This document shows positions 1 through 41,186 of a stretch of 64,000 bases of DNA, one piece after another. The notes beneath the pieces were generated by a model. That model saw only the letters and a program-made list of their open reading frames with translations, made no database searches and was not told the DNA's origin. Numbering within the stretch: the first letter of the stretch is position 1; the number at the start of each line of letters is the position of its first letter. This DNA is from Siphonodentalium dalli (taxonomy: Eukaryota; Mollusca; Scaphopoda; Gadilida; Siphonodentaliidae), in contig CP136067.1 of NCBI GenBank assembly GCA_032622095.1, forward strand, positions 136,589,990 to 136,653,989, written 5' to 3'. A program made the translations under genes and the position numbers.

Positions 1-1026
1 AGGAAGACTGTGAAGTCGGATGTCAAAAACAACTATGACCAAGATAAGGACTTTTTCATCTCCTTCTTCAATGCATACCTGATTGAAGCACTTTCAGAAT
101 ATTTTGGTTTGGTTACTTTACTTGACAATCCAACAAAGCATGTTCCACCAACAGAGGCTACTGATGACCAATTAAAGGATTGGCTTGATATTACCATGGG
201 AGAATTTATCGAAGAGTTTGTTTGGGGAAGAAAATCTGGAGCCACCTTCATTTCACCAGAGGGAACATATGAAACTGTTCTAAAAAATGTTGTGTTGCCA
301 TTACCTGATGGGAAAACATACAAATTCACCATGCAGCAAAAGATATGGAAGAAACTTCCAAAGTCTAAAGAAAGCCATGATAATGTCCAAATTTATGCTC
401 AAACTGTTCTAGAATTAGGTCTCCTATTCTTGCAATTTTTAGATATTATTCACTCTCCAGACAGAGACAGACTGATAGTGACATCTAAGTTCATGATGAA
501 GACATTCAAAGCCTCAAATAACCTCAGCAAATATGCATTGGAAATTGCACGATTTTTATCCCACCAACAAGCTTCATATAGTTTAAAGGTAGCCCACCAA
601 TCATTATATGGATTGTTTGTGAACACGCAGGGCAAACTCAACACAAGTATTCCTGTGGATTTAAGGATGGAGCACTTAGTGAAGCAACTGAAAAAATTAT
701 ACAGGGCAGCAGGGTCGAATATATCAGAAGAAAACATCAGCCGAAAAGTTAAGGCTATTGTTGGTGTCACAGAAATTTCAGAGAACTTTGACGAAATGGG
801 ATATGTTGTTGTTCGAGCACATTCGCACAAATTCAAATCGGCACATGATGATGAATTATTACTTATAGAAGGCTTACGGACAGTCAGACCATTTATGACG
901 AATTTAGGCCGTAAATTCAAAGGTTTTGAGAACATGATGCCAATATTATCATTGATAAATAATGAACATTATGCTGCTTGGATAAAGCGTCACAAATATG
1001 TACTGTCATTCGAAGCTGGGAAGTAA
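1..1026 (+). CDS. DUF6589-like protein, C-terminal part (partial at left edge)
   Basis: The reading frame is open from the first base (AGG AAG ACT GTG...) to a TAA at 1024-1026, so the start lies outside the window and about 341 residues are seen. No signal peptide or membrane segment is visible. The last third (about residues 218-330) has a pattern I associate with DUF6589: 'PVDLRMEHLVKQLKKLYRAA', then 'GSNISEENISRKVKAI', then a C-terminal 'FENMMPILSL'. DUF6589 occurs in metazoan and fungal multicopy proteins, often transposon-linked, and its biochemical role is not known to me. The gene converges on the RecQ-like helicase on the other strand with 600 bp between the stops, and an AATAAA lies 267 bp downstream. 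The family call is from memory of the pattern, not from a search. The long open frame itself is certain. Confidence 0.6.
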   Translation, partial: RKTVKSDVKNNYDQDKDFFISFFNAYLIEALSEYFGLVTLLDNPTKHVPPTEATDDQLKDWLDITMGEFIEEFVWGRKSGATFISPEGTYETVLKNVVLPLPDGKTYKFTMQQKIWKKLPKSKESHDNVQIYAQTVLELGLLFLQFLDIIHSPDRDRLIVTSKFMMKTFKASNNLSKYALEIARFLSHQQASYSLKVAHQSLYGLFVNTQGKLNTSIPVDLRMEHLVKQLKKLYRAAGSNISEENISRKVKAIVGVTEISENFDEMGYVVVRAHSHKFKSAHDDELLLIEGLRTVRPFMTNLGRKFKGFENMMPILSLINNEHYAAWIKRHKYVLSFEAGK

Positions 1027-1292
1027 TCAGGATATGACTTATGACAGTTTAAAGCAACATACTTTATTCATTTTCAAAAACAATCATGATTCAGGATTTG
1101 GTAATTGGAATCACAATATTGAATCCATTCTTGGACATTTACTATGTTCGGTTATACACATGTAAAAAAAAAAAAATTTGGACAAGCTATTTCCTTTTCA
1201 CCCTTTGAAGAGTAAAATGACATACATGTATATCATAAACATAATGTGACATGTCGTATCAAGAAGTGTCAATTTTAAGTAGACATAACTTC

Positions 1293-1298
1293 AATAAA
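1293..1298 (+). terminator. candidate poly(A) signal of the DUF6589-like gene
   Basis: AATAAA, 267 bp after the stop at 1026. The 1027-1626 spacer is otherwise AT-rich with no coding sign. The motif is common by chance in DNA this AT-rich. Confidence 0.3.
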
Positions 1299-1626
1299 TC
1301 ATCTGATTTATAAGTATTTTGTATATGTGACTTGCAGATTAATATATAATGTCTCAATGATAAGTACCATAGCTTGTGATAGCACACACAAACTGAAAAT
1401 ACTCATCAATTTAAAAACATTATTGGACATTACGACTCAAATTTGTAAGTAATTGTTGCTATGATATGTTTAACTTACTCATGACATTACAGTATATGGC
1501 ATTTTAAATACTCTCCAAAGGGTTAACTCACATTTTACTACTGAGTGTATAAATCTTAATTGTGTGTGTTGCGCATAACCAGTCCACCCACCAAACAGAA
1601 GTCACAAATACAAATAAGAATTGGAA

Positions 1627-4600
1627 TCATGAATCAGTAATACACTTGATGAGTGTAAACAGAGAATCTGCTACAATCTGAGGCAGATGGAATGTAGTCA
1701 TGCAGTGGTCTGCTGACTTCACAAATTCCATGCACTCTGATAGAGCATGTACAGTATGTTCATCTAAACACAAGAAACAAATTCCAGTACTATCAGCCTC
1801 TATGTATAACTCTACAGCAGAGACAAAATCTGCCCTTTGTTCGACATTCACTCTAGTGTGTGTCACATCTGATGGGTGTTGTATACAAATGTCACAGCAA
1901 GAAGGTACATCATTAGACTGAGTTTCGAAATAGTGTGAAATAAACACTCGCCGGCAGTCCGTAGAGTTGCAAAACTCTTTCATCTCCTTGTCAACATGCC
2001 TCTGTCCTAAATCTGTGGCATTGTAGAACAGCTGAGCTTCTGCTGACGCCCCATCTCTGCCAGCACGTCCGACTTCCTGCACATATGCTAAAATCAGAAT
2101 GAAAGCCACTGATTAAAGAAATCGTCATGTCCGTGTTAAAGGTACTCAATCCGATTTGATGGTCCCCATATAACCAGATTACAACAACTACATTTTTAGA
2201 AATGCACTTCAGTTATCAGAATCGATTAATTGCCCAAAAATAATGCTAACCACTGTCAACTATAGTATAAAATTGCTAGAAACATATTATTTATCAACAT
2301 GCTGTTTGACGAAATATGGCCTTATTATCAACACAAAACCTCTTGATTTTAGAGTTATCCATCTTCATCTGGAATTTGATCCCAAACCATCGGCTCATCG
2401 ACTTTTTACTGGGCCACTAATAAGTCTTGATGGTGAAAAATAATAGATTTCAAAAATCGATATCTGATAACTCAGACCTTTGATAGGTGGGTTCCTCGAC
2501 TCGAATAAAATATTGTTTACCCCGAAAGCAAATAAATAGTAATTGAGGGGCACTTAATTGGATTATGCATCTTTAAACTGTTCTATCTCTTGTTTTTTAT
2601 TTTTTTGTTCAAGTCAAGTTCAAAGCCTTGCGACACCAGTTCACATATGTCCATTCGGGTTTGTAAGTTAATATATAACTTATATGATATATATAAGTTA
2701 TACATTAACTCACAAATCTGGATTGGATGGGGATATTAGTCCAGTGCATTTATGGTTTTACCCAGAACTAATTGCAACAGATTTTTTTTTTGCTGGAATT
2801 GGTACATATACCCTCCATAAACAACATACTAAAAATCGGCAAAAATCGGAAAAAGGGAAATTAGTGAATTTCGTGAAAAAAAATTGAGAAAATTTGGTCA
2901 AATCATCAATTTATGGGTTTTCATGAATGTATATAAAAAATTCAAATTCACAAGTCCTACAAATATCATGCATATTTTGTCGAACACATTTTCCTGAATC
3001 CAGAACTGGAAACCATTCCCAGATTCCTTAAGTATTTTTCGAGTTGTGTGCCTTCAAAAACGCGAGTTTACCTGATTTCGGAGCCTTAATTTCGCAGAAT
3101 GAGCCAAATGCTGTATTATATGGTTAATTATTTTTAAAACTAGAGCAAAATTAATTACTTTTACACTGTTTTAGTAATTTCCTCACCAGATAAAACACAA
3201 AATATGATTAATATGTGCATCTATGAATAAGGAGAATAAAATATTCTCAAACAAAATGTGTGTTCCATTGTATGGACTTAACCAAATTTGCCTTGACACA
3301 GAACTCGTGTGATGAAATGCCATATTTGAGGTCATGTAACTCAATAAATTAATATCCATATGCTCTGCTTTTCTCATAACATTTTGAGAATACTAGACTG
3401 AACAAATTGTGAAGGAATTTCCAAATACATTGGTGAAGAAAATAAAATTATGGTCCTATGAACTCTTAGTCTAGCCTCTTTTCCGAAAATGCAATTGTGG
3501 GACGTTTTTGTCAATTTTAAAAGGATGTTAGGCATATACAGAAAAATTAACGAAAGTTTATTGTTTAAAATTATGTGATCTGTCCTCTTAAATCATTTTT
3601 TTGTTGAGAAAATAGCATTTCAATGGCTATACCAATGAATTTCACTGGATTTCACTCATCATTGTGGAAACATACTCCAAATTTTAACGGCAGAAAAATG
3701 GGGTAGGGGAAAGCATATCAACAAAATAATGTATTAAGCAGTTTTATAATGCAACAGGAATGTACACAAACTGGAAGAAAACAACATTGTGTCTGAAATG
3801 GCTGTAATTTGGTGATAAGATTGCATTTTGTGATTTTCCCTACCCCTATACCAACGTTAAAATTTGGAGTCAGTTTCCTGAAAAATGAAAGAAATCAAGT
3901 GAAATACTATGGCATAACCAATGTAAGGCTAATTTTTTATCACTAAATTGTTGTGGGAGGAAAGTTCAAATAATTTTACACATTAAAACACCCATTGTTT
4001 TTTGTTTTTATGGCCCAAAACCTTTTAGATTGGACAAAAATGCCTCAAACTGGCATCTTTGGAAACAAGCTAAAACTAAGTATTCAAAGGGCCATAAGTT
4101 GATTTTCTTAAATAATGTCCTGTTAATACCTTTACATTTTGTTCAATCCAACATACTTAAAAGGTTATAACAAAAGCATGGCATATGGGTATTAAATTAT
4201 TGAGTTACATGACCTCAAATATTGCATTTCATCACACACGTTCAGTGTCGGAGGCAAAATTGGCCAGGTCCATACAATGGAACACACATTTTGTTTGAGA
4301 ATATAATCTTCTTCTTAATTATAGATACACATATTAATCATATTTCGTGTTTAATCTAGTGAGGAAATTACTATAACACTGAAAAATCCCTTCAGTTTGC
4401 TCTAGTGTTTTTAATAATTAATCACAAATAAGGCATTTTGGCTCATTCTTCGATATTGAGGCCCCGAAAATGGGCCGAAATCAGGTAAACTCGCGTTTTT
4501 GAAGGCACACAACTCGAAAAATACGTAATGAATCTGGGACTGGTTTTCAGTACTGGGTCAGGAAATTGAGGTCGACACAATACGCATACCATTTGTAGGA

Positions 4601-6294
4601 TTTGTGAATTTGATTGTTCTTATATGCATCCATGAAAATCCATAAATTGATGATTTGACCAAATTTCCACAAATTTATTTCACGAAATTCACCAATTTTC
4701 CTTTTTCCGATTTTTGCCGATTTTTAATATGTTGTTTATGGAGGGTTTGCGTACTTATTCCAGCAAAAAAAAATTCTGTTGCAATTAGTTCCGGGTGTGG
4801 CATTTTTTTCTCATAAATGCACTGGACTATATGTCAATGGCTGTGTCAAGGCTTTGAATTTGACTTACCAAACAATTTTTTTTAAATAGAACATTTTAGC
4901 ACTGACGCGATAAAATGCTGTAATGGTACAAATGATTCAGACAATAAAATGTGCACAAGTAAAATATTCAGCTGTATTTGTTATGAGATTACCTTCAAGA
5001 GTTGATGGAGGCCCTGCATGTACAACCTTCTTAACGTTTCTCAAATCACATCCCATTCCCAGAGCAATTGTGGAGAAGATCAATCTGATTGGAGAATTCT
5101 CCCTATCCAACACCTTCAGGATGTCATCATTAACCTGTAAAATCATTCAATGTGGTCAGAGATAATAATCAAAGTACATGTCAAGTTTTATTTTATATCA
5201 ATGTAGTTTGTAGGCTGAAAATACATGCATTTAAAAATTAAATGTGGGCTAAATATTTTCTATTTTAAACAAACCTTAAAAAGAATTATTACACTTCATA
5301 ATAAAATACAATGAACTACTACATGTATTGTCCATCTCATAATGATAACTAATAGATGTATAATATCATTTATTTATTTCTGCACCATGTACATTAGTTA
5401 ACAACTTACCTCTTTAGGTTTCTGTGAGTGAAACTGAACAACCCGTGGTACCATCTTATTGTCCTGGTTGCTCCAAAATCTTTGGCCGAGAATGTGCCTC
5501 GCTAAAAGAATCCCATGCTTGCACCACTGTAGTTTACTGTAGACCACAGTTAGGAGCATATTTTCTGGGTCTGCATACAGATCCATAAGCAGTGGCTTAA
5601 ACACATAGTCATATGAATCCTCTACAGGAGCTGGTGTTCTCTTTCTTACCATCAGCATTATATTATCGTTAATGGTAAATGATGACCGTATGTATATTAT
5701 GTTGTCCATCCCAAGCTGTCTGACAATTTGTAACTGAGAACTTTGACTTGCTGTTGCGGTAATGGCAAAGAAATGAATATCAGAACTGAGGTGAGCCCGA
5801 AGCTCGTTTATTGCTTTATAATCCTTTCGGAACTCGAGCCCCCACTCCAAAACACAGTGAGCCTCATCAACAATCACATATGTCCTGTCAACATTCTTTG
5901 TAATATTTCCAAGAATTGACGAGTGTTCGAGGACGTGTTCTGGATGACCAATATAGAATGTTGATGATGGGACTTGCTGGTTTGGTTGGAGACTAACTAT
6001 TTCTGTTCCAAGTTTCTGGCACTCTTGATTTATTAGACTGTTCAGTGGCACGATTATAATAACTTTGCAGGTTTTCGATTCCATTAGTCTTGTATATATT
6101 GGCAATATTTCATAGATCAATGATTTCCCATAACCAGTAGGAAGTGTCGCCATCACATCACCTTTGAGTAGAGATGACAAACATTGTAACTGTTTTGGTT
6201 TCAGGAAGTTGAAAGCTGTCTTGAATGAACAATTGTATTCTGACAGAGCCAGCTTTGACAGCAAGGATTTCTCGATAGTTTGTGATACTGCCAT
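1627..6294 (-). CDS. RecQ-like SF2 DNA helicase, three exons, 495 residues
   Basis: Exons (minus strand) are 6294-5410, 5134-4993 and 2087-1627; together 1488 nt, an exact multiple of three. Donors are GAG|GTAAGT (5410) and GAAG|GTAATC (4993); acceptors are TTTTACAG| (5134) and GATTTTAG| (2087). The joined protein has the RecQ motifs in order: Q-like KPKQ (32-35), Walker A PTGYGKS (52-58), DEAH (143-146) followed by the RecQ aromatic loop CVLEWGLEFRKDY, motif III ITATAS, motif V STIALGMG and motif VI QEVGRAGRDG, whose codons span the last splice. A RecQ zinc cluster follows (Cys382, Cys387 with CRR, Cys406/407, Cys410). It ends shortly after, with no winged-helix RQC or HRDC domain, so it is shorter than cellular RecQ1, BLM or WRN. 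It would unwind DNA 3'-5' using ATP. TTTTCAG lies just before the ATG, so an upstream exon or 5' UTR intron is possible. Multicopy short RecQ-like genes are common in marine invertebrates and may be transposon-borne. Confidence 0.88.
2136..2576 (+). mobile_element. Repeat family R1 copy a: ~440 bp TIR element in RecQ intron 2
   Basis: The ends are inverted: TTAAAGGTACTCAATCCGAT on the left, and the complement of ...ATAATCC...GCATCTTTAA on the right. It lies 48 bp upstream of RecQ exon 3. A second copy (37951-41345) is split by a LINE, and a partial inverted copy lies at 28785-28927. There is no coding capacity, so it is a non-autonomous DNA element. Confidence 0.72.
2577..4905. mobile_element. 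2.3 kb foldback element (long inverted repeat) in RecQ intron 2
   Basis: The left arm (about 2577-3715) and right arm (about 3830-4905) are reverse complements over more than 1 kb, with roughly 115 bp between them. Landmarks shared in inverted order: CTCCATAAACAACATA (2814/4735 region), the ATCGGCAAAAATCGGAAAAA block, GTTTACCTGATTTCGG, and CTCCAAATTTTAACG near the centre. The left arm carries an extra ~70 bp with its own small hairpin (2665-2712). With R1a it accounts for all but about 135 bp of the 2905 bp intron. No protein is encoded. Confidence 0.85.
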
Positions 6295-6955
6295 TCTGAA
6301 AATTTATTAAAAGAGAAATTACATAAAATTCTCCATGAGTTACATATCAATCATGAACCAGGGTTCATCAGTGGGTTGTATATAGCATGTGTTCTTAATG
6401 CATTTAAAACAACATTTTGTTTTGAACTAATATTGACTAGGCAAGTGCATATACCAAGTCTGATAATAAGCAACCTGATATTTGAAAATTGAGTTTCCCA
6501 GTGGGTGAATTTCGTCGCACGTTATCTCAAACAAAAATTAAACTGAAAAAGAGAAAATTGTATATAATTATTAAATTTTGCCTCTGAACCTAATATGATA
6601 TCTGATCTGGGTAGGGCCAGATATTCTTACCACAATAAATATGTGGGAATAATGAAAGCCGTCAGGACTCATTATGGTGTATTTTAGACTAGCTTGCCGC
6701 GAATGAAGTTTTATGTTACTAGAACTATCTATGTTCTTAAAATTATTGGCCCTATCCAAGGCATCATATACAAGGACAGACAATATTAGTATTTATTATA
6801 AATTTAATGTAAATTAATTTATATCGCAATGTATCTGCAGTGGCTCTTTTTTATACTATACAGATTATATCCTGCGGCCATTACAACTAAATTAATATTA
6901 TAATAATTTCTCATAATAACCATGCGCTCTAAAGTTTATAGTTTAGAACACCAGC
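6295..6955. other. RecQ upstream region, no gene seen
   Basis: AT-rich sequence on the 5' side of the RecQ-like gene. No convincing TATA box, exon or repeat is visible. A short upstream exon cannot be excluded because TTTTCAG precedes the ATG at 6294. Confidence 0.4.
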
Positions 6956-7029: not shown

Positions 7030-8840
7030 TGATATAAAGCTGGCATTGAAAAACTAAAAACACTAGAGCTCCGGGTGGAGACACATTCATGGGCAGGGAC
7101 GCTGATATGCATTGGGAAATATGTTTTTTCTTCAATTTTCGTGTCTATATAGGCCCACTATATGGGAAACAGGCCACCAGTAACCCTTAATTCTTATGTA
7201 AATGTATTTTAAATTATATACATGTATGTAAGGTTAATAGTGAACAAATATGAGTTAATTTCAGTGTAGGAAAAAGATTGCATCACTCATTTTATCCAGC
7301 CCCAACACAGCCACCCCCCTGTATTGTGCCTGGGGAAAATATGCTTTTCAAACTAACCATATAATTGTGGCGTTTTGAGTCCTGTAGAGGTGTTTGTCGG
7401 GTTGGTGTAGAAAATTCCTAGTTTAGCCCAAACAGACCCATTATCAGTGTTTGAGTCTGTGCCACACATGAATATAAACAAAAAATTCCTAGTAATCAGG
7501 TGAAAATTATGACAAATCAAACAACCAGCATGTAAAGTATAGTTTACAAATGGTTTGTGACATCTTATTGTGTGATAGGGTTTGAAATATACGATATGGG
7601 CCAATAAATTTGAACACGGCAGCGTAAATACTTAAAATAGACATACACGGTATTGCGCGAAATCAGGCAATGGCTGCACTTGATCGCACGATTTTGTATA
7701 ATTTTATTGTCGCTACAAAGCGGAGAATGGCGCAAATCATATAAATGTATATTTTTGCACAATGCGATGACAATTTCGGCAACAATTAGTCATAAAAGTA
7801 GTAATTAAATCAGTATTTACAGTTGGCACGTTTTTGTGATCGCCGCCGACCACGTGTATGGTTTGTTATTGTTTACAATTTCAGCCTGTACCTGACTCTA
7901 TCGGTAGATTGAGTCAGGGTACGAGACTAGGCTGGCCGTCCATCTTACGTTTTCATAGGATACAAATTGATCGGATTTTAGGTAAGTGAAACTAATTAGT
8001 CATCAATTGAAGTGATTTATCATTATGAACAGACTGTTACTAGTAAAATACTTAATCGAGCTACAATTAAAAATGCACGACTTATCCTGTTTTATTCAAA
8101 TGAAATTTGATAGTAAATCGGCCTAATTTTGTTTCCGTTAAATATTTCAGAAAATGGAATCCGTCATTGATAAATGAACATTTTTTTGGTCAAAATAGTA
8201 ACTTCTGACGGACTATGATTATATGGCATTTATGAATCATATATAAAGGTAGCCCTACACAATATTCCCAACTGTGTTCCAAACTGCAATAACGATTTTT
8301 AATGAATTATAAATTGGCCTAAATTTGATGCTTCATAAAAGGAAAAACTGTCCGGGAATGGCTATTTTCGTCTGCAAAATCAAATTCTGCCATAAATGCA
8401 GTGTATTGTCGGTCGACATTAATATGACAATAGTTGGAATATTAAAAGGTCCCAGTTATTAAAAATATACATGTAGCTTATGGGCAATTCCACGACGGAG
8501 AATGAAAGTTGTGAAAAAATTAAATCTTGAATATTGACTAAACAATTTGAAAATCTGATAGTTATGGTATTCAAGTTATTGAAAACAGTTTTTCTCTCTC
8601 TCATATTCATCATTTTAGTGCTGAAAACTTATGCCATTGTTAACCCACATGTGCTACTGAAAGTTTTGCCAAAAGTGGCTTGTAAGTAATTGAGCAAATA
8701 GTAACAATTATTTAAGATTGGCTTATAGTATTTCAGTATTTAAATAGGTCGATGCACGCTATAACACATTTTGGGGTTTATATTTCTGTGACTGATGTCC
8801 ATTTGGGGAAAAATATTTTTCAGAAATCTACATACTATAT
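7030..8840. other. non-coding stretch, nothing strong
   Basis: No exon with splice support is seen. A short imperfect hairpin sits at about 7886-7933 (GTACC-TGACTC ... GAGTCA-GGGTAC with outer AGCCT/AGGCT), and a CACGTG word at about 7851. The rest is AT-rich and featureless. Confidence 0.4.
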
Positions 8841-11621
8841 GTAATGTCAGTCACGAAAATACTACCTTTTTTGGTATAAAACAATATTGCATGACAATAT
8901 AACAACCATATCTTAGAGACGCTCAATATACCTGAGCCTCAATGTCTGTGTTCAAAATAAGCACCATTGGATATCTAAGTTGACCGCTAGCAAGAGTTGA
9001 AATATGTAATGTCAGTCACACGTAATGTCAGTCACGGCATGTAATGTCAGTCACGTTTTGCAATTTGTTCCTATTCTGGTAGATGACATAAAAATATTGT
9101 AAGAAAACATACTACATGTTTTAATTGGATTTGTAAACATATGCAGTTCCATATAAGTGCATCTACTCTCTGTTCTCATGATGTACATGTACCGGTATGT
9201 GAGCATTGAATGCACGGTATGTGTAGCGGTATTTCATATAAGAAATGTTTCAGAACATGGATGGCGAGTGAATAAGTCGTACACGTCGCACTTATCTCCT
9301 GAGATGTGTTTTTGAGATTTTAACATATGAAGTTTCTGTTATGGTCAGTGCTGGGAAGTTCTGGAAATGGCCTTCACGTGAAGACAAGCTTATATATCAA
9401 CGGGAAGACATATGCAAGAAACTGAATGGCCCAGTTGTTGTTAATTCACGTGGGAATTTTGATTTCCCAGCAAATAGTTAAATGCATGGTATATATATGA
9501 TGACACAGTGCAGTTCTTTGTTCAATATTATTTAGTGCGAATGGATGTACTGTGATATTACAGAGCTCTGATTCTTAATTGGCAGTACTATTTATTCAGT
9601 GATTGGTTTAATGTTCTTATCTCCGAATAAACAAACTATCAATAAAATTCAATATCATGATCATTGGTACACAATTGTGAATATAATTCACCATTGGTCT
9701 ATTCTAAAAAGAAGTATGCAAAGTCTGAGCTGCTAACCGGTATATATTTGGTGTCAATAGGCAACCGTGTGTCTTTTAACGCCCCAATATCTATCACAGT
9801 AATTACATATACTAAAGTTCTTCTTATCACAATAGGGATGTTTATTGAGAAACTTCTAACTTCTCCCTTCAAGCATTCATAAACTTAAATTAGCTATGGA
9901 TGTGGTGGAAAATATGCGACAAATTGTTTGACGTGTAAAGTTAGAAGTTTTTCAATCTAAACTTCCCTAATATTTCCAGTAAAATCCTGCTGTTTGCATG
10001 AAAAAAAAACTACTACAAATGGGGCTGCAACGATTCATCATGATTTCAATGCATCGCAATTTAGTCAGTGCATCGCATCGTAAATGTCTGAAGTGATAAA
10101 TCACGATTTATGAAAGGCACACTTTTGAATAAAAACTCATCAAATGCTTTCTAACAACACTCAAGAATTCAGTTTCTCAACATTTATTTCCAAGAGTGAC
10201 ATCAATTTCATCAATGAGAAAGAGAAAGTTAGTAGGCAATTTACCCTTCCTAATTGCATGAATCAGATTGGTTACCATTTGGGCAATGAGCAACTTGATC
10301 CCTACAATGAGCCTGAACAAGGCTGAATTAATTCATAGATATACATGTAGTGACAACTAGCAATTGTGCATCGTGGTTCACACCCCATCGAAGCATAAAC
10401 ATTGGGATGTGCATTGCAACGTGAACTTCCGCATTGTTACAGCCCAAACTACAAGTGGGCTGAAAATTATCAGCTAGGTTATATATTCAGAAATTCATGT
10501 TCCCAGGTATAATAAACAGTGTGCTCAGACTTTTGTTGTGGTAATGAGTTGTTCAACTTCTACGAGAAAGTCCCAGTATTATGTTATCATATTTCTCGGG
10601 AGGCTGCCATTCAATGACGATCCTTATCCACTTATTTATTTATTCAACTTGTATAAAATCAAAATATATCTCACTAAATACTGGTAAACAAACTGTACCA
10701 GGGAAATTTCAACACAGATTTGATGTGAAATATCCAACTGAAATGTCATATGCATGAAATATTTGTTGAAAATGTTTGCCAAAGTATAAGACAACTACGC
10801 AAATCACCTCCCATTTTCCTGGTCTCCGAACGCTATTGTCTGAAAAACTTGTGCAAAAGGTAATTGAGAATTTGTTCATAGGCTAATGTTTTGCACAAAT
10901 TTAATCAAATAATATCAGTCACAGACATTAGTCTATTCATAATATTTTTTTGAAATTCCAACTATAATAATTGAAAAAGGTGTTCATATTAAATTATTTG
11001 AATGTAAAACAACTTAAATTTGAAATCTAGTTACGATGTATCTTGGATAATTTTGTGTAATGTCAGTCACGCTTACATTAGCCAATGTCATGTTCATGTG
11101 CTGTATATGGTAATAAAATATATTAAATGCATTTAAACCCCATAAAATATGACTTTAGGGCACTAATTACTCATTTGGATCAGAAACTGTTGGAAATAGT
11201 TGATATATTTCATAGCGTAATGTCAGTCACGAAATTAGTGTAATGTCAGTCACGCATAATTTGGACAACAACAAATATTTAATTATAGTTCTAAGCTTAA
11301 ATTTTGCTTTTACATTATCTTGAAATATCTACCATGAAAAATTAACAAAGAAAAACATATGAGTTTCTGTAAATTTAAGACAAATTTAATTTGAAAACAA
11401 GTTGGCAATGTGCCTTGATATTTTCATGTAATGTCAGTCACGCTAACATTGAACGATGCCATTTTATCATCGCTTGACTAAATTCAGAATAATGCACATT
11501 TTTGGGTGCACCCTGGCACAAGCCAACATCACACATAGAAATAAGATTATATATTTATACATGTTGCTGGTATCACCACAATGAATCTGGAAAAAGTTCT
11601 TTGAATGTAATGTCAGTCACA
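8841..11621 (+). repeat. dispersed array of the 15-mer GTAATGTCAGTCACG
   Basis: Exact copies start at 8841, 9022, 9041, 11057, 11217, 11240 and 11428. Copies ending in A start at 9006 and 11607, and a copy with more mismatches at 10909 (ATAATATCAGTCACA). All are on the plus strand. Single-step intervals are 165, 148, 160, 188 and 179 bp, with close neighbours 16-23 bp apart. Flanks after 11057 and 11428 are related but strongly diverged, while the 15-mer is intact. No gene is seen here, and 9056-10908 is otherwise unremarkable. Function is unknown; a conserved protein-binding box in a decayed satellite is one reading. Confidence 0.85.
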
Positions 11622-11759
11622 TGGAATTGCCCTTATAAGGAAATTGTCAGTTATGATCAGTTATACCGGTACTTCATACCATTATTCTAACAAATGTCAA
11701 CCTGATAGAATTCCCACAATCTCTTTAATATTGTCATGCCATGGCCAATTTAACACTAA

Positions 11760-12440
11760 GTGAACGTTCAGATTACCACCATACAATCGTCGTAGGAAGT
11801 AACCGCTCAACTGTGCATGCTCACCTCAAAATCGTAGGTAAAAAATAATATCATGCACTGTTTTATTTAAAAGCGAAATTGTGGCGTATCCTTGGTTATC
11901 CCCATTTGCGACGTAATCACTAATCAGTCATGTGTATGTAAAAATTGTGGCCTGAAGGATCGCATGATAGTCAATCACATGCTTTACAAAAAAACTGTGA
12001 TTTCATCATGTACGACATCGTAATCATGTGAACAAACTATCCACGATCTCGTCGATCCCGGTTCCTCCGCTTAAGATTGTATCTTTCATCTGTACGTTCA
12101 CTGAGTGAACATTCATGATTCATATGACTACGATTCAATTGTAAGTGGACAGATTCCCATCTTGGGTAATAACCGATAGTTGGACTGCGCATGCTCACGA
12201 CATGATCACGAGTTATATCAATGCAGAATTGCTAAATTGTGACGTATCCTTGGTTACCTCCACTTGGTGAAATTTGCGTGTACGTAAAAATTGTACAAAG
12301 TAAATGGAAATATCATAGGATAGTTAATCACGTGGTTAACCACCGATATTAAATATACTCATCTGCGATGACATCGTAACAAACTATCCATGATTTTGTC
12401 AGGCCCGATTCCTCCACTTACGATTGAATTATGGTCTTCT
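11760..12440 (+). repeat. diverged tandem pair of a ~345 bp unit
   Basis: Units start at about 11760 and 12105. Shared landmarks in order: GTGAAC, ...GCATGCTCAC, GTATCCTTGGTTA, TAAAAATTGT, GACATCGTAA, AACAAACTATCCA and GATTCCTCC/GGTTCCTCC...ACTTA. The units are only moderately alike, so the duplication is old. No reading frame is preserved. Confidence 0.65.
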
Positions 12441-12579
12441 GACATCTGAATCGCCGAAAATGCTAATATTGTTGGAAGAATGAACTTTACACTTGTTTTT
12501 TGAATATGTTTGCAAATTATGAAAATACATGCATCCATATCACATATATATGTACATGTATTTTTTCTTCAATTACAGA

Positions 12580-25553: not shown

Positions 25554-26803
25554 AGAATCTGTCAGATAAGATAAGATAAGATAAGTTTATTGGCACTAGA
25601 ATCATGAAACATTGTAACAGAGTAAGAATATGTATAATATGTATGTGTTATATGAGGTTGCAAATGGAATCTAGATGTGACTGTAGAGTATAAATGGTCG
25701 AACAGATCGAGTGATCTTCTCCTTCACCCCACGGTTTCACTATGAGTGACAAATTACGGATCTAAAAATTTACGGATCTAGTATACGTAAATATTGTATA
25801 TATGGTCGAACAGATCGAGTGATCTTCTCCTTCACCCCACGGTTTCACTATGAGTAAAAAATTACAGATCTAAAAATTTACGGATCTAGTATACGTAAAT
25901 ATTGTATATATGCCGACAAAAACGCAATGATGATTGGGGAAATAAAGGTCCCAATGCCATTAGACTCATAACACTGAAGTATGGTCCGTTAAAGTCCCAC
26001 TTAATTTCCGAAACCCCAGATACTTTTGTACAAAATATATGCCATATTATATACCATTTGAAAGAGGAAGCTCCATCACATTGTATTATCAACTTATCCG
26101 GTGTAATAAACTGTGAACATGTTGTTTTTGTTGACTTCCCAACATGTTTTTGTCATCTAGATTGTAGAAAAGGTGTATTATTTTCAATGGATGGAGAATA
26201 ACTTGATATCTTAAAGATAGAGTTATTCCACTTCCATTGAAAATTCATCTTTAGTTTAAATTTGTTGGGGGGGAATCTTTATATGATTTCAGCTGTTTTC
26301 TATTTCTTTATGGGCATCTTCCGAGACACAGATATTTAAAATGGTAATGAATTATAGTAATTTAATAATATTATATGGCATAGATTGTTATTAAAACCGT
26401 TTATCAAGTCACTATAAAAAAATATCGGTGACTCGAAAATTAAGAGGGCCTTTAAATAATTCCCTCCACTGTCGTAGATTTACAGTAATTTTTAACTCTT
26501 TCAGTGCCAGGGGCCGATCTCATCGACCCTAAGTGGCCCAGTACAAGTCGATGAGAAGACCAAATAGCAGATGAAGATGGATAACTCTAAAATCAAGTGG
26601 CATTTTGTGTCAGATATTGACAAACCGTCAAAATTTCATTGTACAAAAGGTTGACAAATAACAGGTTTTGCAGGGGGCCGGAAAAAACTGCAGACACAGG
26701 GTGGAAAAAACAGTTTTCTTCGGTTTGGGTACACCCCCCCCCCCCCCCCCCCCCCCCAAAGCAAAATCTGCAGTTTTTTTTCACTGACCATTTGCCCCCC
26801 CCC
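25521..26803 (+). repeat. 1283 bp tandem duplication, unit A
   Basis: Starts CTCTATTTCGTTATAATCAA and is followed at 26804 by the same sequence. The units are almost identical (isolated substitutions, a 2-bp indel, poly-C length, about 19 extra bases near 26693). The internal junction falls in a C run. Each unit holds (GATAA)n, two copies of a ~107 bp module with GATCGAGTGATCTTCTCC, and a palindromic element. Confidence 0.92.
25990..26455. mobile_element. palindromic element family Q (in unit A)
   Basis: Inverted ends CCCACTTAATTTCCGA and the near complement ...TCGAAAATTAAGAGGG. An internal palindrome lies near 26180-26250 (AGATAGAGTTATTCCA with its mirror). The second copy is 27275-27738, a distant relative is 42603-43052 and a fragment is 45065-45180. 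The 99-codon frame here is not supported as a gene. Confidence 0.55.
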
Positions 26804-28050
26804 CTCTATTTCGTTATAATCAAGTTCGAGATCCAAAGAATCTGTCAGATAAGATAAGATAAGATAAGTTTATTGGCACTAGAATCATGAAACATTGTAA
26901 CAGAGTAAGAATATGTATAATATGTATATGTGTTATATGAGGTTGCAAATGGAATCTAGATGTGACTGTAGAGTATAAATGGTCGAACAGATCGAGTGAT
27001 CTTCTCCTTCACCCCACGGTTTCACTATGAGTGAAAAATTACGGATCTAAAAATTTACGGATCTAGTATACGTAAATATTGTATATATGGTCGAACAGAT
27101 CGAGTGATCTTCTCCTTCACCCCACGGTTTCACTATGAGTAAAAAATTACGGATCTAAAAATTTACGGATCTAGTATACGTAAATATTGCATATATGCCG
27201 ACAAAAACGCAATGATGATTGGGGAAATAAAGGTCCCAATGCCATTAGACTCATAACACTGAAGTATGGTCCGTTAAAGTCCCACTTAATTTCCGAAACC
27301 CCAGATACTTTTGTACAAAATATATGCCATATTATATACCATTTGAAAGAGGAAGCTCCATCACATTGTATTATCAACTTATCCGGTGTAATAAACTGTG
27401 AACATGTTGTTTTTGTTGACTTCCCAACATGTTTTTGTCATCTAGATTGTAGAAAAGGTGTATTATTTTCAATGGATGGAGAATAACTTGATATCTTAAA
27501 GATAGAGTTATTCCACTTCCATTGAAAATTCATCTTTAGTTTAAATTTGTTGGGGGGGAATCTTTATATGATTTCAGCTGTTTTCTATTTCTTTATGGGC
27601 ATCTTCCGAGACACAGATATTTAAAATGGTAATGAATTATAGTAATTTAATAATATTATATGGCATAGATTGTTATTAAAACCGTTTATCAAGTCACTAT
27701 AAAAAAATATCGGTGACTCGAAAATTAAGAGGGCCTTTAAATAATTCCCTCCACTGTCGTAGATTTACAGTAATTTTTAACTCTTTCAGTGCCAGGGGCC
27801 GATCTCATCGACCCTAAGTGGCCCAGTACAAGTCGATGAGAAGACCAAATAGCAGATGAAGATGGATAACTCTAAAATCAAGTGGCATTTTGTGTCAGAT
27901 ATTGACAAACCGTCAAAATTTCATTGTACAAAAGGTTGACAAATAACAGGTTTTGCAGGGGGCCGGAAAAAACTGTTTTCTTCGGTTTGGGTACACCCCC
28001 CCCCCCCCAAAGCAAAATCTGCAGTTTTTTTTCACTGACCATTTGCCCCC
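26804..28050 (+). repeat. 1283 bp tandem duplication, unit B
   Basis: Second unit, continuing through its C run into the poly-C-rich repeat copy 2. Because it runs smoothly into sequence found elsewhere (17730-18600), this is the original right side of the locus. Confidence 0.92.
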
Positions 28051-38227: not shown

Positions 38228-41186
38228 GACGAAATTGGCCGGTAAACCTGGGTTACTGCTCCTCCTAGACTTCTAAAAGGCTTTTGATTCAGTATCATGG
38301 AAATTTATACATAAATGCCCTAACTTTTTTTATTTTGGAGATGCCATGAAGAGGTGGATTTCCATATTTTATACGAATATCAACTCATCTATTTTAATAA
38401 ATGGGCATATATCTCAGAGTTTCAAACTATATCGTGGCTGTCGACAGGGTGACCCAGTCTCGCCGTATATATATTTTGTTATATGCGCGGAAATCTTAGC
38501 TATTATGATTAAGTCCAATGACCACATTAAAGGTATCAACCTCGGTAATTTAGAATACAAAATTACACAGTATGTAGACGACACGACTCTCATTTTGGAC
38601 GGTAGCGAAGAAAGCCTCAGGGAAGTATATACTGTTTTAAACTCATTTGCAGATTATTCAGGCCTGAAAATTAACAATAGCAAATGTCAGGCGTCGTGGA
38701 TTGGCTCTTATACGGAGCGTACGGATATTATATGACCAGATCTTGGACTAAAATTTGATAGTACTTTCAATCTCCTTGGAATATACTTTGACACCAACCT
38801 TGACAAAATGGATACCAATTATGATAGAAAACTTACTGAAGTCAAACGTTTGATAGCAACATGGAAACACCGGTTACTTACACCCATTGGTCGAATAACG
38901 GTGATAAAATCACTAATACTCCCAAAATTAACGCACCTTTTTGTAGCTCTACAAAATCCCAGTAATATTTTTATGAACAATCTTGACAGAACGCTCTTTA
39001 ATTTTCTCTGGAATTCGAAGCGTGATCGAGTTAAACGCAGAGTTATTTGTCAAGATTATAAGAACGGTGGATTAAAAATGGTTGATGTAAACAAATTTAT
39101 GCTGTCCATGAAAATAACTTGGGTGAGGCGCCTCGTAACCAAAAGTGCCAAATGGATCCCCTTAACAGATATACCTTTACGCGATGACCCTATGTTCCTT
39201 ACTTATGACTATTCCTACATAGAAAAACAGGCAAAAAATTCAACCAATCCTTTTTGGCATGATGTCCTGATGGCATTCACAAAATTTCTAGAGAAAGACA
39301 GAAACAATCGCAAAATATCAGCGTGTACGTTATGGAATAACCCAAACATAAAGCAGTACGGAAAAGTAATAAATTTCACCTCCAGGCGAGAAAAAGGGAT
39401 TATATTTTTAAATGATATGCTGGACGATAATGATCGCTTTCTTACACGAGACGATTTACTAAAGATTTATAACATACGCACAAACTTCATCACTCTTAAT
39501 AACATTCAACATCAAATAAAACTACTCACAAAAAAACTTGACCAGCCTATAACTCGAACTTGCAGCCCCTTTTTACCAAATAATTTCATTAAACTGCTTA
39601 AAAACAGTTGAGGAGGACAGGACTTTTATAACATCTTAATCGATATTCCAACTTCTACAGTAGCACACAGAAAATGGCAAGCGTTTTTTCCTGACAACAC
39701 AATTCAATGGTTTAAACTAGATAAACTACCCTTTCTCACGACGCCTGACACAAAGCTACGATGGCTACAATTCCGAATAAACTCACGAATATTATCAACT
39801 AACAAATTTCTTAAAATGTCCAATCTATGACAAGATGATAAATGCGATAGATGTAAAAGCGAGACAGAAGACATCTCCCACATATTTTGGAACTGTGTTC
39901 AAGTTCAGAAATTCATTAAGGAACTCAGCGATTGGGGTAAAATTAACAGCATTGATCTCTGTCCCCAGCAGATGACAATGATTCTCGGTTCATCACCAAC
40001 GAATCCGAACTTTATAACGAACATGCTGTGGCTTCTAATTAAACAATACATGTATAGGACCAAATTCAAGCCAATTAACTTATCGCTAAATGTTTTCCTC
40101 AAAACAGATCATTTTCCGAACATTCCCAGTGTAAATCAAACTTCAGCAGTCCACAGTTCAGGTCAGTGATACTGATAGTAATATCTATTTTCCGTTACAA
40201 ACATCGACAATCTTCATTATTAGATTACCTGTTTACTTTCCACACAATCAGCGACATTCCGCTTACACGTGCTTCTGTTTTCATTAGGTTAGATAAAAAA
40301 AGAAAAAACGTACCTGACATCTTCGTACACCAAGATAAAACGATTAACCCATGACGGGTGAAATATTTCCCCATTGCACCGGAGACATGTATATAATATG
40401 TATATACCCTATCATAATATTTATATTATCTTCTGTAAATAACTCTTTGTAATTCTCTATATATTCATATGAATTCGAGAATAAATCATCATCATCAAAG
40501 AATTGAATTATAGATACCAATGTGAGAAGTATACCGCACGATGCCAATCGAAACAACAAGAATTTTCGAAAAACTGGTTCCTTTTAGAAAAGGCTATACA
40601 TATACGCACCGAGTCAACACAAATAAACTTGTCCTGAATATTTTCTCTTCACCAGTTCAAAAACTCACTTAATTACTATACCCAAGAAATACTATTATCG
40701 CCCCAATACCACAACACCGTCTATAGTTAGATATCGTACCAATGCGCCCAGTCTGGGTGAACGTCGACTCTATATTTGAAATATTCAATGTTGTAATGAA
40801 TATTTAGGTATGAGTTTACTCAGACTGCAATGCGCCGTACACAGGAACAAAGTTCAAAAGATTTAAAATCTGGATTACTATATAAAATGAACACATTATT
40901 CGATTTATCCCAATGTCTGTTTTTATTGGAATAAACAGACAAGGGGGTGAAGGAGAAGATCACTCGATCTTTTCGACCATCCCGGGCGCTTCGCGCCCAT
41001 CTACTCACTCTCAAAATTTATCCCAATCCACATGTAAGTCACTGGGGGTGCATATGACGTACGAAAGACGTGTAAATGAAGTGAGCAAGATGTGAGAGAA
41101 TTGGAAGAATGTAACTTTATTTATAATAATATGTACCCTGTCTGTATTTACATTCTTCATTGATGTCTGTTTATTCCAATAAAAAC
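38228..41186 (+). mobile_element. 5'-truncated LINE insertion with 12 bp target-site duplication
   Basis: Flanked by AATAATTCTCGA at 38216-38227 and 41187-41198. It begins inside the reverse transcriptase and ends after ...CCAATAAAAAC, with an AATAAA just before the junction. About 1 kb of 3' sequence follows the coding remnant. It contains GAAGATCACTCGATCT, whose complement is also in the 25.7 and 27.0 kb modules, and an inverted pair TCTGTTT(TTA)TTGGAATAAACAGA / TCTGTTTATTCCAATAAAAAC. Confidence 0.9.
38229..40169 (+). pseudogene. LINE ORF2 remnant (L1/Tx1-type reverse transcriptase), with in-frame stops
   Basis: One frame runs throughout, interrupted by TAA 38274-38276 and TGA at 38733-38735, 39609-39611 and 39828-39830, closing with TGA 40167-40169. 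Recognisable blocks are LLLLLDF[stop]KAFDSVSW, the GCRQGDPVSPYIYFVICAEI motif, the catalytic YVDD (38571-38582), SGLKINNSKCQ, FNLLGI, LTPIGRITVIKSLILPKLTH, FNFLWNSKRD and the C-terminal DKCDRC...ISHIFWNC zinc pattern. The palm lacks its N-terminal fingers because of the truncation, and no endonuclease is present, so it cannot be active. All stops after the first are TGA, as expected from CGA decay or single changes of Trp/Arg codons. Confidence 0.88.

Follow-up and report, generated by a model that had tools for sequence, protein, structure and literature searches.

The window, by which we mean the whole stretch of 64,000 nucleotides analysed here, contains one copy of a DNA transposon that is dispersed through the genome; this copy is non-autonomous and is bounded by inverted terminal repeats and a short target-site duplication (Table 1). 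Inside this copy, between positions 8841 and 11621, the word GTAATGTCAGTCAC(G/A) occurs nine times on a single strand. Four of the words lie near the left end of the element and five near the right. Seven are exact copies of GTAATGTCAGTCACG, and in the other two an A replaces the final G, which is a change within a CpG. The initial annotation of this DNA had described nine words on one strand, in exactly these forms, and every one of them was recovered. Successive intervals between the nine words are 165, 16, 19, 2016, 160, 23, 188 and 179 bp. When up to three mismatches were permitted, 13 matches were counted in the window, compared with a mean of 1.57 and a largest value of 6 in 100 shuffles. 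A search of the window with Rfam returned no match at gathering scores.

Several other repeats and gene fragments are found in the window. At 1-6303, a DUF6589 frame on the + strand (10-1026) adjoins RecQ-like helicase pieces on the - strand (1627-2109 and 5398-6294), and these frames are possibly parts of another mobile element. They were considered as a partner gene for the transposon and were dropped once its real gene was found. Just past the right end of the transposon, diverged repeat pairs about 350 bp apart, with inverted arms, occupy 11754-12451. A near-same 108-bp unit forms a two-copy tandem at 25688-25912 and again at 26973-27197, 1285 bp apart; the two tandems are probably part of a larger duplication. 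The near-palindromic unit GCCAATGCATTCTCTTATATATGCGAG ... CTCGCATATATAAGAGAAT occurs six times (31776, 45590, 45738, 47068, 47352 and 59531) and resembles a short element of the foldback or MITE type. A reverse-transcriptase fragment lies at 38277-38732 (RVT_1, E 6.9e-20).

Table 1. Features of the transposon copy and its repeated words in the window
Feature	Coordinates	Strand	Basis
Left target-site duplication, TTAT	8478..8481	.	Window sequence; exact 4 bp in 12/15 copies
Transposon copy, 3151 bp, subfamily A, non-autonomous, read as a deletion derivative	8482..11632	+	Copy-comparison boundaries; gene-carrying relative
5' terminal inverted repeat, GGGCAATTCCACG, 13 bp	8482..8494	+	Copy comparison; 146 genome 5' termini
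Word 1	8841..8855	+	Copy position 360; 356-375 in other copies having the exact word
Word 2	9006..9020	+	Ends in A here; G in 8/10 compared copies having the site
Word 3	9022..9036	+	Exact-word search and copy comparison
Word 4	9041..9055	+	Exact-word search and copy comparison
3'-end remnant of transposase-like gene (..VMVSAGKFWKWPS..NSRGNFDFPANS)	9322..9478	+	Alignment to gene-carrying copy
Stretch absent from gene-carrying C2 copy, contains the weak match at 10909	9538..10979	+	Alignment to C2 copy
Word 5	11057..11071	+	Exact-word search and copy comparison
Word 6	11217..11231	+	Exact-word search and copy comparison
Word 7	11240..11254	+	Exact-word search and copy comparison
Word 8	11428..11442	+	Exact-word search and copy comparison
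Word 9	11607..11621	+	Ends in A here; overlaps the start of the next feature
3' terminal inverted repeat, CATGGAATTGCCC here	11620..11632	-	CGTGGAATTGCCC in 8/11 right ends; 210 genome 3' termini
Right target-site duplication, TTAT	11633..11636	.	Window sequence; duplication survey

The DNA flanking the words was compared with the word itself set aside, in 42 comparisons comprising the right and left sides of 21 pairs, and three of the 42 reached a z of at least 3. On their left sides, 11057 and 11428 are related at a shift of 371 bp (z=4.2), and 9041 and 11240 are also related there (z=3.7), although this comparison is unclean in that the 9041 flank includes other words. On their right sides, 10909 and 11240 are related (z=3.0). 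The stretch 10909-11057 also aligns to the stretch 11240-11428 (z=5.2). An old internal duplication of about 371 bp thus makes up part of the element. The initial annotation had described the flanks after 11057 and 11428 as related but badly decayed. The relationship stands (z=4.2 and 5.2), but the decay is that between old duplicates within the element, and, taken in full, this copy is not heavily decayed, departing by 2.26% from the majority of 12 compared copies. Anchored flank alignments between the 5' word cluster and the 3' blocks scored no better than shuffles, and the idea that the two are copies of one module was dropped on that result. A weak tenth word had also been placed at 10909. 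A match with three mismatches does exist there, but we left it out of the word count because it falls within DNA that the C2 copy with the gene lacks (9538-10979) and because it varies more, with 8 of 165 letters non-majority, than any of the nine words.

The genome comprises 2.227 Gb in nine contigs. The exact 15-mer occurs in it 1004 times (548 + 456), and the reversed-pattern control does not occur at all. Earlier readings of the host microRNA, RNA-binding or homeobox type were dropped after this count. The 100 places listed of the 1004, all on contig C1, fall into 24 groups, none of mixed strand, and 93 of these 100 words lie in groups of at least two. Spacings of 16, 19, 23, 160, 165, 179 and 187-188 bp recur among them, as do distances of about 1.0-2.1 kb. 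In this genome-wide count, which had been proposed as a check on the word, the listed places are clustered in same-strand groups at the spacings of the window. Element DNA was matched at all eight of the word places returned with the count (L002-L009), four of which (L006-L009) are words of one copy. L002 and L005 match as diverged 3' ends only. Word 8 is kept in both, by construction, because the exact word that found them is their word 8. Word 9 of L002 is one change from the window form in flanks that are 67.7% alike over the last 263 bp, and words 5-7 are not recognisable in that locus; word 9 of L005 has one change and a 2-bp insertion.

When 11 loci were compared with L011, the match was confined to one bounded block with the ends GGGCAATTCCACG and CGTGGAATTGCCC; in L013, as in L017, one of the two ends could not be recognised. 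At up to two mismatches there are 146 5' termini and 210 3' termini genome-wide, with no occurrence of either control. Left termini among the 100 listed of the 146 lie on both strands and on all nine contigs. For 49 of these 100 listed 5' ends, a listed 3' end was found on the same strand within less than 20 kb. The spans measure 2.2-3.3 kb in 39 of the 49, and the longest are 5211, 6118, 6369 and 16495 bp. An exact 4-bp target duplication, of varied sequence, flanks 12 of the 15 copies having both termini and is missing from the other three; nine of 24 copies, in which a terminus was not identified, were omitted from this count. Because the outer flanks of L019 and L025 are identical, these two copies are probably a single insertion within host DNA that was later duplicated, and the count becomes 11 of 14 independent insertions with the duplication. 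The family therefore has the terminal inverted repeats and the target-site duplication of fixed length that characterize cut-and-paste elements.

These ends bear directly on one of two suggestions in the initial annotation, that the word resembles a CENP-B-like box preserved in an eroded satellite of about 170 bp. The CENP-B box is about 17 bp long and is spaced at about 170 bp in alpha satellite. The 160-190 bp spacing would suit such an origin, as would the old internal duplication of about 371 bp. However, the elements are discrete and dispersed, they form no tandem arrays of monomers, and their words lie between transposon termini that are flanked by target duplications. A centromeric box is likewise contradicted by left termini that, among the 100 listed, occupy both strands of every contig. 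As a main account the satellite is refuted by the termini and duplications, and we give it practically no credence.

Longer members of the family carry a gene. A copy on contig C2 (6369 bp, target duplication TGTA) has open reading frames of 418 and 305 amino acids and the same nine words, at positions 359, 524, 540, 559, 5794, 5954, 5977, 6165 and 6344. Its transposase-like gene, of about 700 codons, is broken by a stop. The same protein, of about 700 amino acids, is encoded by this copy and by one on contig C6 (16.5-kb span); the two gene copies are nearly identical, and both are interrupted. The window copy has in common with the C2 copy about 850 bp at its start, the final codons of the gene and 651 bp at its end; element positions 841-1056 match positions 5520-5719 of the gene-carrying copy at 85.6%. 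Between the shared parts, 1.44 kb of the window copy was not found in the C2 copy. Judged by this alignment, the window copy is a deletion derivative of a gene-carrying element. Upstream of the gene, the C2 copy also holds internal repeats at an offset of about 510 bp (L023:1-1700; element ~1700-3500).

The family protein has 97 matches in the genome. Searches of it against Pfam, NCBIfam and solved structures gave nothing above threshold, and the best Pfam match, Pet127 (E 0.009), was under its cut-off. Relatives of the protein on viral contigs were rejected as low-complexity matches. The large conserved reading frame lies between the termini of full-length relatives and matches no known transposase profile. 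It contains the conserved blocks IQxDFxENY, SDGPSSQFKxKY and FFATxHGKGxVDGIGG, which look like a predicted catalytic core. Because the profiles gave no match, the label 'transposase' rests on position, termini and motifs recognised by eye.

In order to read the conservation of the words correctly, the way in which copies were chosen has to be considered. Eleven loci (L010-L020) were picked from the first 100 of the 1004 word places for holding many words. Together with the window copy (L021) they make up the 12 copies from which both subfamily consensuses were built. Non-majority letters account for 20 of 1589 in the words and 1161 of 24435 in the other columns of this set, in which 11 of the 12 copies are word-selected. 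Between the two subfamily consensuses none of 135 word columns differs, compared with 113 of 2035 in the rest (Fisher p=0.001), a figure biased toward unchanged words because the consensus copies were word-selected. Another 12 copies (L022-L033) were chosen by their 5' terminus, from the 100 listed of the 146, and all are exact there. Only three of them belong to subfamily B, and one of these is without any word position. The usable part of each was trimmed by hand ahead of the divergence test and insertions were not counted, which applies likewise to the count of core sites. In these copies the exact 14-mer core is kept at 57 of 60 complete sites. Against their subfamily consensus, 12 of 900 word letters differ, compared with 404 of 19125 in the rest (Fisher p=0.12).

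These comparisons suggest that the words were retained during the period of the element's mobility, and after insertion they are favoured no more than weakly. The view of the initial annotation that the word is a conserved, probably protein-binding box at steps of 160-190 bp, better kept than its flanks, is supported. The rates inside and outside the word, which it had proposed to compare in related species, contrast between the subfamilies, in word-selected copies, but not significantly after insertion. Its other suggestion, an operator for a host transcription factor, gains nothing here, since such weak retention after insertion lends no support to a host function. Two of the copies chosen by their terminus have features of their own. 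In L027 (2225-2741), a very young left end of 388 bp, with 1/369 differences, stops at MULE-like-looking frames, and Pfam gave nothing significant for the one L027 frame tested. In L029 (1899-2678), a left end of 127 bp lies upstream of a frame possibly akin to the animal gene ECSIT.

A related lineage, L039, was found by its protein and not by the word. It has one open frame of 690 amino acids, 48% identical over query residues 22-374, and termini (GGGCCATTCCAT / ATGGAATGACCC) that resemble those of the window family. Its duplication, ATAT, is not independent evidence because the rule by which its ends were found required a 4-bp duplication. When its termini are set in register with those of the family, L039 carries a changed word, of the TGTTGYRTCAGTCAC type, at 360, 526, 542 and 561, where the window family has its words at 359, 524, 540 and 559. 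On the right its words lie 392, 378, 180 and 14 bp from the end, with a poor one at 360 (ACTAGTGTCATTCAC); those of the family lie at 562, 402, 379, 191 and 12 bp, and the 562-bp site has no clear counterpart in L039. In four stretches of DNA between the words of L039, no alignment rose above shuffles (z 1.6, 0.7, 1.1 and -1.1). The gene of L039 is reversed relative to the array, and the array therefore follows the ends of the element and not a promoter. The protein of L041 is 51% identical over residues 194-374 and 40% over 47-198. All six TCAGTCAC words of this locus share a strand, the opposite strand having none. Measured from a GGGCCATTCCAT end, three of the six lie at about 360, 542 and 561; the second end of the element was not found. 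L040, L041 and L042 all fail the terminal-repeat rule, and the more distant L040 (33%) and L042 (32%) contain no TCAGTCAC core. The protein relatives in L040 and L042 adjoin extended tandem arrays with unit lengths of 16 bp and 29 bp (L040:7752-9900; L042 from ~650 on). These arrays are unrelated to the word and could be terminal arrays of those elements or chance satellites.

One reading of the words is that they are passive remnants of duplication within the transposon and have no role. Some word pairs do fall within recognisable internal duplicates, but remnants of this kind would not readily account for the matching distances, coherently changed word and unalignable flanks of L039, nor for a difference of 0/135 compared with 113/2035 between the subfamilies, even in word-selected copies; we consider this reading improbable. 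A host factor might be bound instead, such as a transcription factor, insulator or silencer, either for expression of the element or for use by the host. The conservation of the word among copies would agree with this, and enhancers with clustered sites in the same direction are known. Against it, the sites lie at fixed distances from both ends, the array stays in place when the gene is reversed in L039, and once an element has inserted its words do not decay at a significantly lower rate than the rest (p=0.12). Moreover, a shared host factor is not expected where the word of L039 has changed coherently within the same genome. We regard a host factor as unlikely, though less so than passive remnants. 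Since such a factor would hardly need matching end distances or ignore the direction of the gene, we infer that the protein concerned is encoded by the element.

The words are thus probably subterminal binding sites for the transposase of the element or for a second protein that it encodes. Several bound sites per end would help to pair the ends and to bring the enzyme onto the terminal repeats, so that the element could move by cut and paste. Under selection for mobility, the words would have been preserved together with their direction and spacing as the intervening DNA drifted, and a change of the binding protein in a related lineage would have changed its sites together. More speculatively, steps of 160-190 bp may allow sites on neighbouring nucleosomes to be read at once. 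Same-strand sites at both ends are, to our knowledge, unusual for a cut-and-paste element, and the proposal does not explain why the repeats at the two ends are direct or why the steps are on the scale of nucleosomes. As a tentative extension, which we think has a lesser though appreciable chance of being right, the same-strand, nucleosome-spaced arrays at the two ends may act as a ruler for synapsis that outlives both word and flanks, the protein tracking the letters and the spacing remaining fixed. The geometry in question (359/524/540/559 on the left and about 400/380/185/13 on the right) would be conserved across lineages despite the changed word and the reversed gene.

Among well-described systems, the nearest is that of CACTA elements (En/Spm, Tgm), with subterminal repeats bound by TNPA. 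In soybean Tgm, as here, the inverted termini are short, the subterminal arrays of one short motif are asymmetric, and the motif diverges between subfamilies of a single genome; the soybean repeats, unlike the words here, form stem-loops (PMC2613891). In contrast to CACTA elements, this family has termini beginning GGG (GGGCAATTCCACG), a target duplication of 4 bp and not 3, and words on one strand at both ends. No separate binding protein was found in an unsystematic search. Membership of CACTA was rejected on the termini and on the 3-bp duplication.

Ac/Ds elements (hAT) carry numerous short sites for their transposase, in both directions, within terminal repeats that are themselves short, and make 8-bp duplications. 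The family described here differs in having its words on one strand and a duplication of 4 bp. Sola elements have a 4-bp target duplication and GRG-type termini, and both the 4-bp duplication and GGG termini are found here. We know of no arrays of direct words in Sola. On these features the superfamily may be called Sola-like, an unproven assignment. The autonomous length is of similar order to the mean of 5445 bp given for Sola1 in bivalves (PMC10294476). A duplication of 4 bp also falls within the 3-4 bp given for AcademX (PMC10045372).

Literature searches with the word or its complement matched a 12-letter piece at most, and four terminus strings of 11-12 letters returned titles on other topics among the matches listed. 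By word and terminus strings alone, no report of this element family was found. A bacterial word pair, from Salipiger, was set aside as unrelated; on reading by eye it is a repeat of palindromic form that adjoins a TetR-like frame.

Anyone searching this genome for motifs would meet roughly a thousand of these sites and could mistake them for host regulation. The occurrence of the window family, L039 and L041 in one genome offers a natural test of co-change between a transposase and its sites. The same lineages would allow a test of whether nucleosome-scale spacing and direct orientation matter for pairing the ends, and the changed word may make it possible to predict which part of the protein reads given bases.
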